From assembly GCA_905478925.1 (NCBI GenBank), contig CAJQKQ010000010.1:1-64000 (forward strand): DNA of 64,000 nucleotides, written 5' to 3'. The DNA is from an uncultured Verrucomicrobiales bacterium (GTDB lineage: Bacteria; Verrucomicrobiota; Verrucomicrobiia; Verrucomicrobiales; Akkermansiaceae). Shown here piece after piece: positions 13,062 to 45,451 of this stretch. Below the pieces are notes generated by a model. It saw only the letters and a program-made list of their open reading frames with translations, had not been told where the DNA came from and ran no database searches. Position 1 is the first letter of the stretch. The number at the start of each line of letters is the position of its first letter. A program made the position numbers and the translations under genes.

Positions 13062-13148
13062 AAACTCTAAACTTTAAATTCTAAATCTCAAAAAAGAGTC
13101 CGAACGACGGCTCTTCCTTGAAGTTTAAAGTTTAAAATTTAATGTTTC
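13062..13148. repeat. inverted 7-base-period arrays around a hairpin (locus 1)
   Basis: Four 7-base units at 13062-13089 (AAACTCT, AAACTTT, AAATTCT, AAATCTC) face four inverted units at 13121-13148 (AAGTTTA twice, AAATTTA, ATGTTTC). Between them is a short hairpin, AAGAG-t-CCG pairing with CGG-CTCTT, whose right flank holds the CTTCC word. The array ends three bases before the GTG start of the next gene. Confidence 0.7.
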
Positions 13149-13151
13149 AGC

Positions 13152-14078
13152 GTGCTTGCTTTCTCCACCTGCTGGAACAACTCCCGCCACACCGAGGGCG
13201 AGGCGATGATTCAGGAAATACTCGAACTCGGGTTTCCCAACATCGAGCTCTCCCACGGGATGACTGTCGCCAAGCTTCCCGGCATCCGGAAAGCGTTCGA
13301 GGCCGGGATGTTCACCTGTGCCGGCGTACACAACTACTTCCCCTCCCCTGTGGAGGTGATGATCGACGCCCCCGACGCCTACGAATACACCTCACACCGG
13401 CCCTTTGAGCGGAAGCGGGCGATGGATATGACCCTGAAAACCCTGGAGCTCGCCGCTGAGTTCAAGGCGCAATACCTCGTCCTGCACATGGGCTCCGCGC
13501 CGATGAACACCGCAAAGTTCACCAAGCCGCTCACCAAAACAGTCGCCGCCGGAGAGCAGCGGGAGCCCTCCTACATAAGGAAGAAAATCGCCTTCATCAA
13601 AAAGCGCGAAAAACTCGCCCCTCTCTATTACCGCCGCGCCATCGAAGCCCTCGAGCAACTCGCACCGAAAGCCGAAGAATACGGCGTGAAACTCGCCGTC
13701 GAATCGCGGTCCCGCTTCGAGGACATGCCCAACGAGCGGGAAATGGTGATGCTACAGGAGCATTTTAAGGACAACCCGTGGGTCGGCTACTGGCACGATT
13801 ACGGCCACGTCCAACTCAAGCACAACCTCGGCCTCCTCGATCACCACGAATGGCTGGCCAGCATCGCCCCACACATCATCGGCGGCCATGTCCACGATGT
13901 CCAATGGCCCGCCCGCGACCACCGCACTCCCTTCACCGGCACCCTGGATTACAATTCCATACTCCCCTTCTTCCCCGAGAAATGCCCCCTGATCTGGGAA
14001 CTCAGCCCCACCCGTAAAACGGCAGAGATCCTCGATTCCCTGGCCATCTGGAAACACAAGTTCCCAGAGCGGAGCTGA
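13152..14078 (+). CDS. TIM-barrel protein, sugar phosphate isomerase/epimerase family
   Basis: A 308-residue xylose-isomerase-like TIM barrel (AP2Ec family) from a GTG start. Probable metal and active-site residues are in L-V-L-H-M-G-S, L-A-V-E-S-R near residue 180, Y-W-H-D-Y-G-H near residue 214, G-G-H-V-H-D-V and I-W-E-L-S. Family members epimerise or isomerise sugars or act as endonuclease-IV-like enzymes, so substrate cannot be given. The start directly follows a 7-base-period repeat array; the alternative ATG at 13142 is in a different frame. Confidence 0.75.
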   Translation: MLAFSTCWNNSRHTEGEAMIQEILELGFPNIELSHGMTVAKLPGIRKAFEAGMFTCAGVHNYFPSPVEVMIDAPDAYEYTSHRPFERKRAMDMTLKTLELAAEFKAQYLVLHMGSAPMNTAKFTKPLTKTVAAGEQREPSYIRKKIAFIKKREKLAPLYYRRAIEALEQLAPKAEEYGVKLAVESRSRFEDMPNEREMVMLQEHFKDNPWVGYWHDYGHVQLKHNLGLLDHHEWLASIAPHIIGGHVHDVQWPARDHRTPFTGTLDYNSILPFFPEKCPLIWELSPTRKTAEILDSLAIWKHKFPERS

Positions 14079-14079
14079 A

Positions 14080-14640
14080 GAATTCTACACAAGAGGCACA
14101 AGGGGGATTCTGGTTCGCGCTTGCCCCGTGGCCGACAATCCGGTGACATGTGAGTGCGTATTATGGAGATTCTGGATGATGAGGTTGTGAATGATTGGTG
14201 TGATCTGATCCGCGCGGAAGCACTGGATTTGCATGGCTGGCTGCGGAACGGCCAGAGGGAGAATGTTTATGAGAACGGGTTGCTGCATCGGCTTAGGAAG
14301 AGAGGTTTTGAAGCCAATCAGCAGCAGCAGATCGAGGTCCGTGATCGAGATGGCACATTGCTCGGGGATTATTATGCTGATCTTTTTGTGAACGAATCCC
14401 TAATCATCGAACTGAAGGCCACCAAAGCCATCGCCGACGAACACATCGCCCAACTCCTCGGTTACCTGAGGGCAACCGGCAAGCGCCACGGCCTGCTCAT
14501 CAACTTCGGAGCCTCCACCCTACAAATCCGAAAATTCGTCATCTGAACCTCATTTCCATTCCGCGATTTCTTCCAGAAACCTCCCTATCCTTATCCCAGC
14601 CCGAACCAACATCCCTCTTGTGCCTTTTGTGACAAATTCC
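14080..14640. mobile_element. GxxExxY unit with terminal inverted repeats
   Basis: A left repeat at 14088-14108 and a right repeat at 14612-14632 are inverted copies matching at 19 of 21 bases. Their shared word is TTGTGCC followed by TYTTGTG. Similarity extends outward to GAATTC-like bases at about 14080 and 14640. The 560-base unit contains only the GxxExxY gene. It sits between a plus-strand isomerase-like gene and an nhaC gene. There is no transposase. Mobility is inferred from the structure only. Confidence 0.55.
14163..14546 (+). CDS. GxxExxY protein
   Basis: A 127-residue protein of the GxxExxY family, named for the motif seen here as G-Q-R-E-N-V-Y-E-N-G-L near residues 36-46. The fold is PD-(D/E)XK nuclease-like: D-Y-Y-A-D-L-F-V then I-I-E-L-K-A-T-K supplies Asp, Glu and Lys. 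The ending L-R-A-T-G-K-R-H-G-L-L-I-N-F-G is also family-typical. The function is unknown. Such genes occur as solitary, repeated units in many environmental genomes. The ATG at 14163 is preferred over an in-frame GTG at 14154. It is bracketed by inverted repeats. Confidence 0.9.
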   Translation: MEILDDEVVNDWCDLIRAEALDLHGWLRNGQRENVYENGLLHRLRKRGFEANQQQQIEVRDRDGTLLGDYYADLFVNESLIIELKATKAIADEHIAQLLGYLRATGKRHGLLINFGASTLQIRKFVI

Positions 14641-14711: not shown

Positions 14712-16283
14712 ATGAAAAAGGCCATCATTCTCATCATCCTTCTAGGGCTGAGCGTATTGCTACCGGTTTTCGACCCTCCGGGATTTATTACTGCCCTGTG
14801 GCCGGCGCTCTGCGCACTCACGGTGATTGTCATCACCCGCCAAGCGGCGCTCGGGCTGGGGAGCGGCGTAGTGGCAGGCGCTTTACTAATCCATCACGAG
14901 AATCCCGCCGGGGCACCGCGAGCGATCTTCGCGGATTACATTTTCCCATCGCTCGACGGATCCTGGCATGTGGGCGCTATCGTTTTCACCCTCTTGCTAG
15001 GCGGCTTCGCAGGCTTGCTGGAGAAATCGGGTGGCTTCGACACAATACTCGCGCGACTGGTTTCCAAGGCAAAATCCCCTGAGAAACGCCTACTGGGAAG
15101 CGTGTATCTCATCGGCCTGCTGTGTTTCTTCGACGGCCTAGCGAACAGCCTACTAACGGGCCGGATCGCACGCCCGCTGGCAGACAAGACGGGCGTTTCC
15201 CGGGAAAGGTTGGCGTGGGTGGTGGACTCCACCTCCTCCCCAGTGGCCTGTGTGGCGTTCATCTCCACCTGGATCGCGACGCAGTTGAGCCTGATCCAAC
15301 AGGGACTGGAAGATGCTCCTTTCGCGGTGGAGCCCTACTCACTGTATTTCCAATCCATCCCGGCGAACCCGTATTGCCTGCTCACCCTCGTCCTCGTTCC
15401 GCTTGCCGTTTTCCTCAACTACCAACCGCAGGCGATGAGCCACTACCTGCCACACAAGCCCGATGAAAGCGACGGCACGGAACAACAGGAAGCTTCCCCG
15501 AAACACGCGGTGATCCCCCTGCTGGCGCTGGTGGTGGGGATTTTCGCTGCTTTTCCCCTGCTATCCTCGCCGATGACGAATCCGCTTTCGGCGGCCGGCT
15601 GGCGCGAGGCTTTCAGCGGGGATGCCGGGCCCTATGCGCTCGTCGCGGGAAGCCTCTTCGGCCTCGCGGTGGCATGGGCGATGTATCCGAAAGGCCGAAA
15701 CGTCTCTGCCAGCGGAGCCGCCTATCACGGCGCGGCGAACCTGCTGCCCGCGCTAATCATCCTCATTCTCGCATGGTCGCTGGGAAATGTGTTCTCCTCA
15801 CTGGGCGCCGGGGAGCAACTCGCGGCGGTGCTGTCCGATGGTTTCCGGGTCCAATGGCTGCCGCTCGCCGTGTTTGGCGCGGGAGCTCTGATGGCCTTCG
15901 CCACTGGCTCCTCATGGGGAACCATGGGCTTGCTGATGCCGCTCGCATTGCCCGCGACCCTGGTGGCGGCGACCTCCGCCCAAATCCCTCCCGACGAATT
16001 GGCGACTCTGATCCCCATGATTATCGGAGCGGTCTTCGGCGGCGCGGTCTTCGGCGACCATTGCAGCCCATTTTCCGATACGACCATCGTCAGCGCGATC
16101 GCCTCTGGATGCGAACCGACCGCACACATCCATTCGCAACTTCCATTTGCAGCCATCGCAGCGGGATTCGCCGCCGTCTCCTACGCACTGATGGCGGGAG
16201 GCATCCAAGCAGGGCTAGCTACTGGAATCGCAGCGCTGCTGATGTGCGGCGCTGTGGTAGTGCTGACGAAAAGGCGATCCTGA
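14712..16283 (+). CDS. NhaC-family Na+/H+ antiporter
   Basis: A 523-residue polytopic membrane protein with about 12 helices. The family is recognised by F-F-D-G-L-A-N-S-L-L near residue 140, D-S-T-S-S-P-V-A near residue 172, F-A-T-G-S-S-W-G-T-M-G near residue 397 and F-G-D-H-C-S-P-F-S-D-T-T near residue 452. It exchanges cytoplasmic Na+ (or other cations/amines) for protons. The gene is solitary. Its stop lies four bases before a palindromic repeat shared with a convergent gene. Confidence 0.88.
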   Translation: MKKAIILIILLGLSVLLPVFDPPGFITALWPALCALTVIVITRQAALGLGSGVVAGALLIHHENPAGAPRAIFADYIFPSLDGSWHVGAIVFTLLLGGFAGLLEKSGGFDTILARLVSKAKSPEKRLLGSVYLIGLLCFFDGLANSLLTGRIARPLADKTGVSRERLAWVVDSTSSPVACVAFISTWIATQLSLIQQGLEDAPFAVEPYSLYFQSIPANPYCLLTLVLVPLAVFLNYQPQAMSHYLPHKPDESDGTEQQEASPKHAVIPLLALVVGIFAAFPLLSSPMTNPLSAAGWREAFSGDAGPYALVAGSLFGLAVAWAMYPKGRNVSASGAAYHGAANLLPALIILILAWSLGNVFSSLGAGEQLAAVLSDGFRVQWLPLAVFGAGALMAFATGSSWGTMGLLMPLALPATLVAATSAQIPPDELATLIPMIIGAVFGGAVFGDHCSPFSDTTIVSAIASGCEPTAHIHSQLPFAAIAAGFAAVSYALMAGGIQAGLATGIAALLMCGAVVVLTKRRS

Positions 16284-17334: not shown

Positions 17335-19125
17335 ATGAGCGACACCTCCGCCCTAACCTATTGCCCCGATCTTCTAAGCTATTCCCGAAGGAAGAGCCGC
17401 GAAGTCATGGTCGGGAACGTCGCTGTCGGCGGCGATAACCCGATCCGAGTGCAGTCAATGATCACCTCAGACACCCGCGACACGCCCGCCTGTGTTGCGG
17501 AGGTTCTCGGACTGGTAGAAGCTGGCTGCGAAATCGTACGCATCACCGCACAGACCAAAGTCTATGCCGCCAACCTCGAGAACATCGCCCGCGAGGTGCG
17601 CGCGGCGGGTTGCAACGTGCCGCTTGTCGCGGATATCCATTTCAAGCCGGACGCCGCGATGGAAGCCGCGAAATGGGTGGAGAAAGTCCGCGTGAATCCG
17701 GGCAACTACGCGGACAAGAAAAAGTTCGAAATCCGCGAATACTCAAACGATCAGTATGAGGCGGAGCTCGAACGCATCCGCGAACAGTTCAACCCACTCG
17801 TCCATCTCTGCAAAGACCTCGGCCGCGCGATGCGTATCGGCACGAATCACGGCTCCCTCTCGGACCGCATCATGAACCGCTACGGCGACACTCCGCTCGG
17901 CATGTGCGAAAGCGCCTTGGAGTTCGCCCGCATTGCAAGGGACAACAGCTACCACGATTTCGTTTTCTCGATGAAAGCCTCCAATCCGAAGGTGATGATC
18001 GAGGCCTACCGCCTTCTCGTCGCGCGCCTCGATGCAGAGGGGTCGGATTGGAACTATCCGATCCACCTCGGCGTCACCGAAGCCGGCGACGGCGAGGACG
18101 GCCGCATCAAATCCGCCATCGGCATCGGCTCCCTACTCGCCGACGGCATCGGCGACACGATCCGTGTTTCCCTCACCGAAGACTCCATTCACGAGATCCC
18201 GGTCGCACAGGCATTGGCTGCGGCTTTCAACGGAAAAGCCAGTGATACATCCGACCACACACCGCTGTCCCCGTCCTACGATCCCTTCTCATACGAAAGG
18301 CGAAGCAGTTCGGTTCTCACCATCCAAGGTCACGAACTCGGCGGCGACAAGACCGTCCGTGTCTTCACCACCCAAGAGCGCTGGAACGCGCTCGCCCACA
18401 AGATCGCGAACATGGGCGATTTCAAGCCGGAGATCATCGCTGAGAAATCCCGTATCCTCGAAATCAACCCGCACGACGACGCCGCCATTTCAGCACTGAA
18501 TTCCGAATCGGAAACCCGTCTCATCACTGTCGCCGACGGTGTCCCCTTGGAACCAATACCCGCGTTCCGAATGCTCGCCTTCAAGGCCGATCCCCGCCAT
18601 CCCATCCTCCTCAAGGACACGCTCAACCCGCCATCCGGCGAAACCAATTTCCTCCACGCCCTACTTCCCGCCGCACAGAACATCGGCTCCCTCCTCTGCG
18701 ACGGCATCGGCGATGCAATTCTCGTCCGCGGCGAAACCGCCCCCGGCCAATCGCTGCGACTCGCCTACAACATCCTGCAAGCCGCCGGAACCAGGATTTT
18801 CAAGACCGATTACGTCGCCTGCCCATCGTGCGGACGCACACTTTTCAACCTCCAGTCCACCACCCAGAAGATCCGCGCCGCCACCGGCCACCTCAAGGGC
18901 GTGCGCATCGCCGTCATGGGCTGCATCGTCAACGGACCCGGGGAAATGGCAGATGCCGATTTCGGATATGTCGGCGGAGCCCCCGGGAAAATCAATCTCT
19001 ACGTCGGCAAAACCGCCGTAAATTTCAACATCCCCGAAGCCGAGGCCGTCGAGCGCCTCATTGATCTCATCAGGGAGCACGACAAGTGGATCGACGCCCA
19101 GGACAAAGCCCCAGCCACAGTCTGA
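17335..19125 (+). CDS. ispG: 4-hydroxy-3-methylbut-2-enyl diphosphate synthase, long form
   Basis: An iron-sulfur enzyme of the non-mevalonate isoprenoid pathway that makes HMBPP from MEcPP. At about 596 residues it is the long form known from plants, Chlamydiae and Bacteroidota, with an extra domain between the TIM barrel (ending near residue 270) and the FeS domain. The [4Fe-4S] ligands are in C-P-S-C-G-R-T-L-F and G-C-I-V-N-G-P-G-E near the C-terminus. The ATG at 17335 is chosen because it is the first Met consistent with homologues and avoids overlap with the divergent traB-like gene. clpS follows after three bases. Confidence 0.93.
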   Translation: MSDTSALTYCPDLLSYSRRKSREVMVGNVAVGGDNPIRVQSMITSDTRDTPACVAEVLGLVEAGCEIVRITAQTKVYAANLENIAREVRAAGCNVPLVADIHFKPDAAMEAAKWVEKVRVNPGNYADKKKFEIREYSNDQYEAELERIREQFNPLVHLCKDLGRAMRIGTNHGSLSDRIMNRYGDTPLGMCESALEFARIARDNSYHDFVFSMKASNPKVMIEAYRLLVARLDAEGSDWNYPIHLGVTEAGDGEDGRIKSAIGIGSLLADGIGDTIRVSLTEDSIHEIPVAQALAAAFNGKASDTSDHTPLSPSYDPFSYERRSSSVLTIQGHELGGDKTVRVFTTQERWNALAHKIANMGDFKPEIIAEKSRILEINPHDDAAISALNSESETRLITVADGVPLEPIPAFRMLAFKADPRHPILLKDTLNPPSGETNFLHALLPAAQNIGSLLCDGIGDAILVRGETAPGQSLRLAYNILQAAGTRIFKTDYVACPSCGRTLFNLQSTTQKIRAATGHLKGVRIAVMGCIVNGPGEMADADFGYVGGAPGKINLYVGKTAVNFNIPEAEAVERLIDLIREHDKWIDAQDKAPATV

Positions 19126-44904: not shown

Positions 44905-45426
44905 ATGAAACGTCACTTTTTGCTATTTCTGGCCTTGTTGCCCGTGATCGCGACGCTTGGCTCCTGCTCCAGCCAGGTAAAGGCGCGGCAACCGGTTTCC
45001 TACCGGTTCAATCATGGCCGGACGGCGATGATCAAGAATGGCATCGCCTACGCCCCGAAGAGAGCACCTGCCGCCGTTAAGAAGGCGATTGCTGCGGGTA
45101 ACAGGCTACAGAGCAAGCCATACAAATGGGGCGGCGGGCACGCTCGGCACAGCGACAGCGGCTACGATTGCTCGGGCACAACCTCCTATGTCCTGCGCGA
45201 GGCCGGACTGCTCAAGGGTTCCCTCACCTCCAAGGGGTTTTTCAACTACGGGAAAAAGGGCGAGGGAAAATGGATCACCGTATATGTCCGCAACGGCCAT
45301 GTTTTCATGACCGTCGCCGGCCTACGGCTCGATACCGGTGGAGGAAGAAACAGTACCGGTCCGCGCTGGAAGACCTCCACCCGCAAGGGGAGCGGCCATG
45401 TCATGCGCCATCCCTCCAGACTCTAG
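44905..45426 (+). CDS. NlpC/P60-type lipoprotein peptidase
   Basis: About 173 residues from ATG 44905. A lipoprotein signal ends in L-G-S-C. The Cys nucleophile is in Y-D-C-S-G near residue 88 and the His in G-H-V-F-M-T near residue 133, as in cell-wall cysteine peptidases. The spacing is slightly short for a full P60 domain. The stop codon is supplied by a 7-base repeat array. Confidence 0.8.
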   Translation: MKRHFLLFLALLPVIATLGSCSSQVKARQPVSYRFNHGRTAMIKNGIAYAPKRAPAAVKKAIAAGNRLQSKPYKWGGGHARHSDSGYDCSGTTSYVLREAGLLKGSLTSKGFFNYGKKGEGKWITVYVRNGHVFMTVAGLRLDTGGGRNSTGPRWKTSTRKGSGHVMRHPSRL

Positions 45427-45451
45427 ACTCTAGACTCTAGACTCTAGGGTC
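45421..45451. repeat. 7-base tandem repeat between convergent genes
   Basis: CTCTAGA is repeated three times (45421-45441), then CTCTAGG and a diverged unit GTCTGAA. The first unit contains the TAG stop of the plus-strand peptidase gene at 45424-45426; the fourth supplies the stop of the minus-strand phosphatase gene at 45444-45446. The whole 17-base gap between the genes is repeat. Confidence 0.85.

Follow-up and report, generated by a model that had tools for sequence, protein, structure and literature searches.

The window, the whole 64-kb stretch of DNA that was analysed, contains a small GxxExxY gene that lies between two host genes and is enclosed by a long inverted repeat (the arms, which together with the gene are referred to as the cassette), with the following layout:

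13152..14078, + strand: upstream host gene, a 308-aa ORF, co-directional with the GxxExxY gene; it abuts the downstream gene in genome G004
14080..14121, + strand: left arm, with the words CACAAG-AGG-CACAAG and the tail GGTTCGCGCT, located by repeat search and flank alignment
14163..14546, + strand: GxxExxY PD-(D/E)XK nuclease gene, encoding 127 aa if read from its ATG, with a GTG at 14154 as alternative start
14598..14639, - strand: right arm, which repeats the left arm in inverted orientation (81% over 42 nt)
14712..16283, + strand: downstream host gene, a 523-aa membrane transporter-like ORF, co-directional

The left arm starts 2 nt past the upstream gene's stop codon. The preliminary description of this locus had reported inverted 21-base repeats matching at 19 positions, which is exact for the core, CACAAGAGGCACAAGGGGGAT on the left versus CACAAAAGGCACAAGAGGGAT on the right (reverse-complemented, 19/21), while the full repeat is longer, pairing 14080-14121 with 14598-14639 over 42 nt at 81%. 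Local alignment of the 250-nt flanks gave an arm score of 44, compared to a best score of 29 among 2,887 random placements of identical geometry elsewhere in the 64-kb window. The CACAAG-AGG-CACAAG words recur about every 9 nt rather than every 7, and genus-wide autocorrelation of arms likewise peaks at lag 9, followed by 8 and 10. Two period-7 tandem repeats are present in the window, AAGTTTA (×3.9) at 13121-13147 and CTCTAGA (×4.9) at 45414-45447; the arms had been held akin to these intergenic arrays, which turned out to be plain period-7 repeats of unrelated sequence and were rejected as cassette remnants for that reason. No further word array of the cassette-arm type was found in the 64-kb window, and Rfam gave no match around the cassette. 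Chance and local array composition as the source of the arms were ruled out by the placement controls and by six loci of one genome with differing words.

The GxxExxY family is widespread and often multi-copy. The nuclease-like core proposed for the window protein was borne out by matches to TIGR04256 (E 5.6e-31, 107.3 bits, curated cut-off 35) and PF13366 (PDDEXK_3; E 4.1e-28, 98.5 bits, cut-off 22), with the family motif at G30/E33/Y36 and the active-site residues D73, E83 and K85. Nine positions are invariant in an alignment of 17 diverse sequences (G30, E33, Y36, D73, K85, Q97, Y101, N114 and F115). An AlphaFold2 model (pLDDT 95.4) gave the Cas4 nuclease SSO0001 as best Foldseek match (PDB 4ic1, E 2.7e-4, TM 0.58), with LHK-Exo, RecE, lambda exonuclease and a Holliday junction resolvase as further matches; the modelled core fold is that of the PD-(D/E)XK nuclease superfamily, of which the protein is a predicted member of Cas4/lambda-exonuclease type. 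A sequence-profile search of the PDB found no related chain, and no HUH/Y1 tyrosine nuclease was detected, the protein matching PD-(D/E)XK families only. GxxExxY is also the only recognisable gene between the window arms, and no transposase match was obtained there. The dN/dS values were 0.02-0.09 in the most informative orthologous pairs (pairs with L057 were left out owing to a frame offset), and GxxExxY genes are under strong purifying selection. The genome of the window carries six such genes, two of which (L004 and L006, on contigs C12 and C15) are interrupted by an in-frame stop codon, in line with continuing decay. Database counts of 0 of 50,697 phage records and 8 of 72,556 plasmid records led us to reject the cassette as phage or plasmid cargo, and a role as defence gene was rejected given the weak PADLOC matches.

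Similar flanks accompany GxxExxY genes elsewhere. Using an arm score of ≥30 as threshold and placements within the very loci scored as controls, arms were present at 79 of 91 scorable loci of the same genus (controls, 10/2337) and at 57 of 78 scorable loci of a set covering >20 phyla, archaea (Methanothrix, Methanophagales) included (controls, 2/1419). The check proposed in the preliminary description, a search for like flanks around other GxxExxY genes, was thereby answered positively, and the opposite outcome, homologues with unrelated flanks, did not materialise. In the genome of the window, five of the six genes are closely flanked by long inverted arms (39-54 nt), each with gene-specific words, and the sixth (L005) is accompanied by several shorter word arrays that lie farther out. 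The arms follow a common plan, consisting of an outer A(A)CC and then 3-4 words of 6-7 nt, inverted on both sides of the gene, often with widening inter-word spacing as in CGCAGAG-1-CGCGGAG-2-CGCGGAG-3-CGCAGAG. In the readable cases, the GxxExxY gene is co-directional with both neighbours at 44/50 loci of the genus and 36/42 cross-phylum loci, and this sense orientation with respect to both neighbours suggests that it is expressed through host transcription. Transitions among the arm mismatches are skewed (65 vs 107) in the 79 same-genus loci, which are related and not independent, in the direction opposite to G-U pairing on the gene strand; the skew is absent from the cross-phylum arms (69 vs 62).

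The arm word varies between loci and tracks the protein, not the site. Across 2,365 pairs from unrelated sites, protein identity correlated with arm similarity (rho 0.27, permutation maximum 0.084), with median arm scores of 49-51 at >70% protein identity versus 13 at 30-40%. The word class undergoes 18 changes on a 74-protein tree, compared to an average of 48 when words are shuffled fully and of 22.1 when they are shuffled within sites (minimum 19, 0/1000 reaching 18); because the tree was a quick one from a short alignment of 103 columns, change counts alone were used. The word pattern of the window occurs in 2 of 73 genomes, its own and G022, which are the sole holders of this nuclease clade (2/2 holders vs 0/71 others, chance probability 1 in 2,628). 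In G022, which carries the window gene's nearest relative, a gene-less arm pair lies directly downstream and the left arm was not recognised. CAC-word arrays are present in several genomes without a CAC-clade GxxExxY gene, and G023 (96% complete) has 22 CGC arrays with no GxxExxY gene detected. A universal one-to-one link between array and gene was therefore rejected, as it holds for the word of the window and fails for CAC words.

Empty, decayed and solo-arm sites were found in the same genus. In the complete genome G004, the two neighbours of the window cassette (85% and 82% amino-acid identity) are adjacent, with ~38 nt from stop to start and no words, compared to a gap of 633 nt in the window. 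The clean absence in relatives that had been named as a check is thus seen at this very site, and the gene is not at one site in every relative. At a second site, between the halves of a split metH, a cassette is present in many genomes of the genus, and the gap takes every form between intact and empty: full cassettes, internal deletions with arm traces and a partial nuclease gene (L134, L148), solo arms (L141, L149, L151), scars, and short word-free gaps (L136, L138, L139, L140, L144). It follows from L134 and L148 that a gene-poor arm pair can arise through internal deletion. Neither the empty metH sites nor the empty window site contains a palindrome. No target-site duplication was seen by eye in the empty/filled alignments, in which divergence blurs the exact insertion points. 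The metH gene itself is split in most genomes of the genus into N-terminal (homocysteine-binding) and C-terminal genes (e.g. L003, L153, L154) at the point where the cassette lies, while G012 and G049 have a fused metH; an ancient insertion, perhaps that of the cassette, may have left the split as its scar.

The detailed evidence for mobility comes from one large genus, represented mostly by metagenome-assembled genomes. Over 318 orthologous-site pairs, the cassette mostly shows lower conservation than the flanking DNA (median difference -0.053). The reverse was observed in four species pairs, L064/L065 (cassette.998 vs flanks.881 identity), L003/L058 (.988 vs.821; L003 is in the genome of the window), L091/L092 (1.000 vs.884) and L012/L020 (.986 vs.889). 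In the first three, the identity tract reaches 12-51 nt beyond the left arm and 5-40 nt beyond the right one, and the L091/L092 tract has a sparse extension of reduced divergence ~240 nt downstream, as in co-conversion; the left edge of the L012/L020 tract is less sharp, and one contig stops there. Present and absent alleles are thus found along with horizontal same-site transfer and co-conversion, as for homing genes, the cassette being far more alike than its flanks in the four species pairs. Chimeric assembly is an unlikely source of four independent arm-bounded tracts with matching flanks on both sides, and ordinary homologous recombination with selection for the cassette could explain the same-site transfers. 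Other pairs show whole-cassette replacement, in which cassettes with differing words take each other's place at one site: the flanks are 89-90% identical, the cassettes 73% and the proteins 53-59%, and the word is different. A change of site is seen in L008, which lies at metH and encodes a protein that groups with the pheS-pheT site clade (80-82% identity to the nearest members) and carries the GCCAAG word of that clade; the cassette moved to a new site together with its arms.

Gene-less copies are numerous. The genome of the window has 19 arrays matching CGCNNAGNCGCNNAGNNCGCNNAG, none of them beside a GxxExxY gene (backwards control, 0), and arrays of this type occur in 55 of 61 genomes of the genus; many CGCNNAGNCGCNNAGNNCGCNNAG- and CAC-class arrays are inverted pairs, 43-220 nt apart. 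The word of the window is found at 5 places in G022 and at 7 in its own genome, including the two window arms, inverted pairs on C5, C58 and C141, and a single arm on C37. The C5 pair is missing from the same intergenic spot in G072, G008 and G005. A family of gene-less pairs with a constant 69-nt spacing and a conserved interior (L116/L117, L120 and L122) was observed in three species (G044, G060 and G058), and its member L116 adjoins an SRP RNA gene. At L271 (G000:C141:3700-4521), a CACAAG-word inverted pair encloses an inverted array of differing words, GAACGCTAAGTTAGCAAAG / CTTTGCTAACTTTGCGTCCTTC, and this is one miniature element nested inside another. As in MITEs, the terminal inverted repeats hence recur in copies that lack the gene (C5, C58, C141 and the 69-nt family). 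The suggestion that empty remnants of the unit exist elsewhere held for the genome, as evidenced by C5, C58, C141 and C37, and is also borne out by L134, a clear deletion remnant at the metH site of another genome, but failed for the unrelated arrays in the window; many of the gene-less pairs are devoid of any gene remains and may be miniature forms that move independently, not remnants.

Taken together, we consider it probable that the window contains one copy of a selfish, homing-like mobile cassette, made of word-array arms and a single PD-(D/E)XK nuclease gene and accompanied by miniature derivatives. Sequence comparison shows that the gene and both arms form the unit, which is gained, replaced, moved and lost in one piece, and that the arms co-diversify with the nuclease and also exist in gene-less forms. 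The early proposal that a nuclease gene plus inverted short-word repeats makes up a minimal mobile unit is therefore well supported by the like flanks elsewhere and the empty site in G004. We propose that the cassette, placed between co-directional host genes, probably relies on host transcription, and that its nuclease would recognise word arrays of its own class and cut DNA there or at the empty allele. Repair of the break from a cassette-carrying donor would then copy the cassette in, in a homing-like manner. The cassette spreads whole, arms and gene, mostly to the matching site in other species and sometimes to a new one, later to decay and then vanish, and the gene-less pairs would be miniature derivatives mobilised by the same enzyme.

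MITEs and autonomous transposons have terminal inverted repeats and internally deleted and gene-less derivatives. The cassette is similar in all these features, but has no transposase (DDE, HUH, serine or tyrosine recombinase). The likeness of the window protein to Cas4 SSO0001 (4ic1) and lambda exonuclease concerns the predicted fold of the catalytic core and the D...(D/E)xK residues; unlike SSO0001, to which it has ~22% identity, it is little over half the length and has no CRISPR context. Homing genes are not known to have inverted word arms specific to a class, or miniature copies that lack the gene. The closest working analogues of the cassette are REPtrons and free-standing homing endonuclease genes. 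With the latter, the seg/mob genes of phage T4, it shares a lone nuclease gene in gaps between conserved genes, sporadic presence and co-conversion (PMC2988022), whereas the cassettes were not found in phage records. T4 mobE lies between nrdA and nrdB and relies on promoters upstream of nrdA (PMC2988022), and by analogy the sense orientation of the cassette suggests host transcription. REPtrons consist of RAYT/TnpA-REP, a HUH tyrosine enzyme, with REP/REPIN repeats (PMC3116915, PMC8266576), and resemble the cassette in combining a nuclease gene with inverted repeats, in their dispersed gene-less inverted doublets and in a repeat type that co-evolves with the enzyme. In contrast, the enzyme of the cassette is PD-(D/E)XK and lacks the HUH tyrosine that defines REPtrons, its arms are multi-word arrays, often of 40-54 nt, instead of single palindromes, the gene unit crosses species, and several word classes and genes occur per genome.

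These likenesses raise the alternative that the nuclease is mostly resident, as in REPtrons, and that the true mobile clients are the gene-less pairs, excised as single-stranded hairpins, with the gene merely adjacent. The dispersal of inverted word pairs in most genomes, the tie between repeat type and enzyme, the conserved sites under purifying selection and the gene-less pair directly beside the gene in G022 all agree with this reading, yet the cassette itself crosses species and is replaced as a unit, several different GxxExxY genes are present per genome and the enzyme fold is unrelated to that of HUH enzymes; we regard it as unlikely. It is also conceivable that the arms are the target, gene-less palindromes spreading alone and the nuclease gene homing into their middle and so splitting its own recognition site, given that the gene is central between matching arms, that gene-less palindromes with a spacing of 43-170 nt are common and that the word tracks the protein. 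The empty metH and window sites without a palindrome, the derivation of a gene-poor pair by internal deletion in L134 and L148, and the failure to find a clean case in which the same site has one palindrome both filled by the gene and free of it nevertheless make this distinctly improbable.

Two further explanations do without a selfish nuclease. The gene could be a useful passenger, its product serving the host in repair or defence, the arms being autoregulatory operators and the transfers reflecting host selection. Strong purifying selection and the presence of arms near the gene on both sides fit such a role, which appears very unlikely in view of the repeated loss, pseudogenes and empty sites, the exact inversion of the arms at both ends, the gene-less copies elsewhere and the weak PADLOC matches. 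That the arms act as RNA, pairing within the transcript of the operon so that the nuclease frame is looped out or protected, while the gene spreads via ordinary recombination only, would suit the sense orientation inside co-directional gene runs, but we can give this hardly any credence, since G-U-compatible arm mismatches are not in excess on the gene strand (65 vs 107 in the genus, 69 vs 62 across phyla), Rfam has no match around the window cassette and gene-less pairs are scattered genome-wide.

Returning to the homing-like cassette, we lean, somewhat tentatively, towards the broader proposal that such cassettes make up a class of selfish DNA that has not been described before and occurs in most phyla of bacteria and in some archaea, its words and nucleases diversifying jointly and driving the homing-like spread of the cassette and its gene-less copies. 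The open-access papers searched contained no description of a GxxExxY cassette or of an origin for the word arrays, and the class is counted as new because of this negative result and because the cassette has neither the transposase of transposons nor the HUH tyrosine enzyme of REPtrons. The GxxExxY family and the interspersed word arrays are hereby joined as parts of one mobile unit. If correct, this would provide an origin for many interspersed arrays of the CACAGAG/CGCAGAG/CACGGAT type in these genomes, as well as a family of mobile elements without transposase and a natural set of nuclease-DNA word pairs differing in specificity, and it predicts that every GxxExxY protein binds and cuts its own word class.

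A second dispersed repeat was observed, which is AT-rich and ~36 nt long, AAACTTCAAATCTCAAAATTCAAACTCCAATGAAG, with one copy at L251:317-352 (G000:C5, about 19016-19051). Its matches number in the dozens, spread over many of the genomes of this genus, and it may be another word-array class; AT-rich stretches resembling it adjoin several solo CGC arrays.
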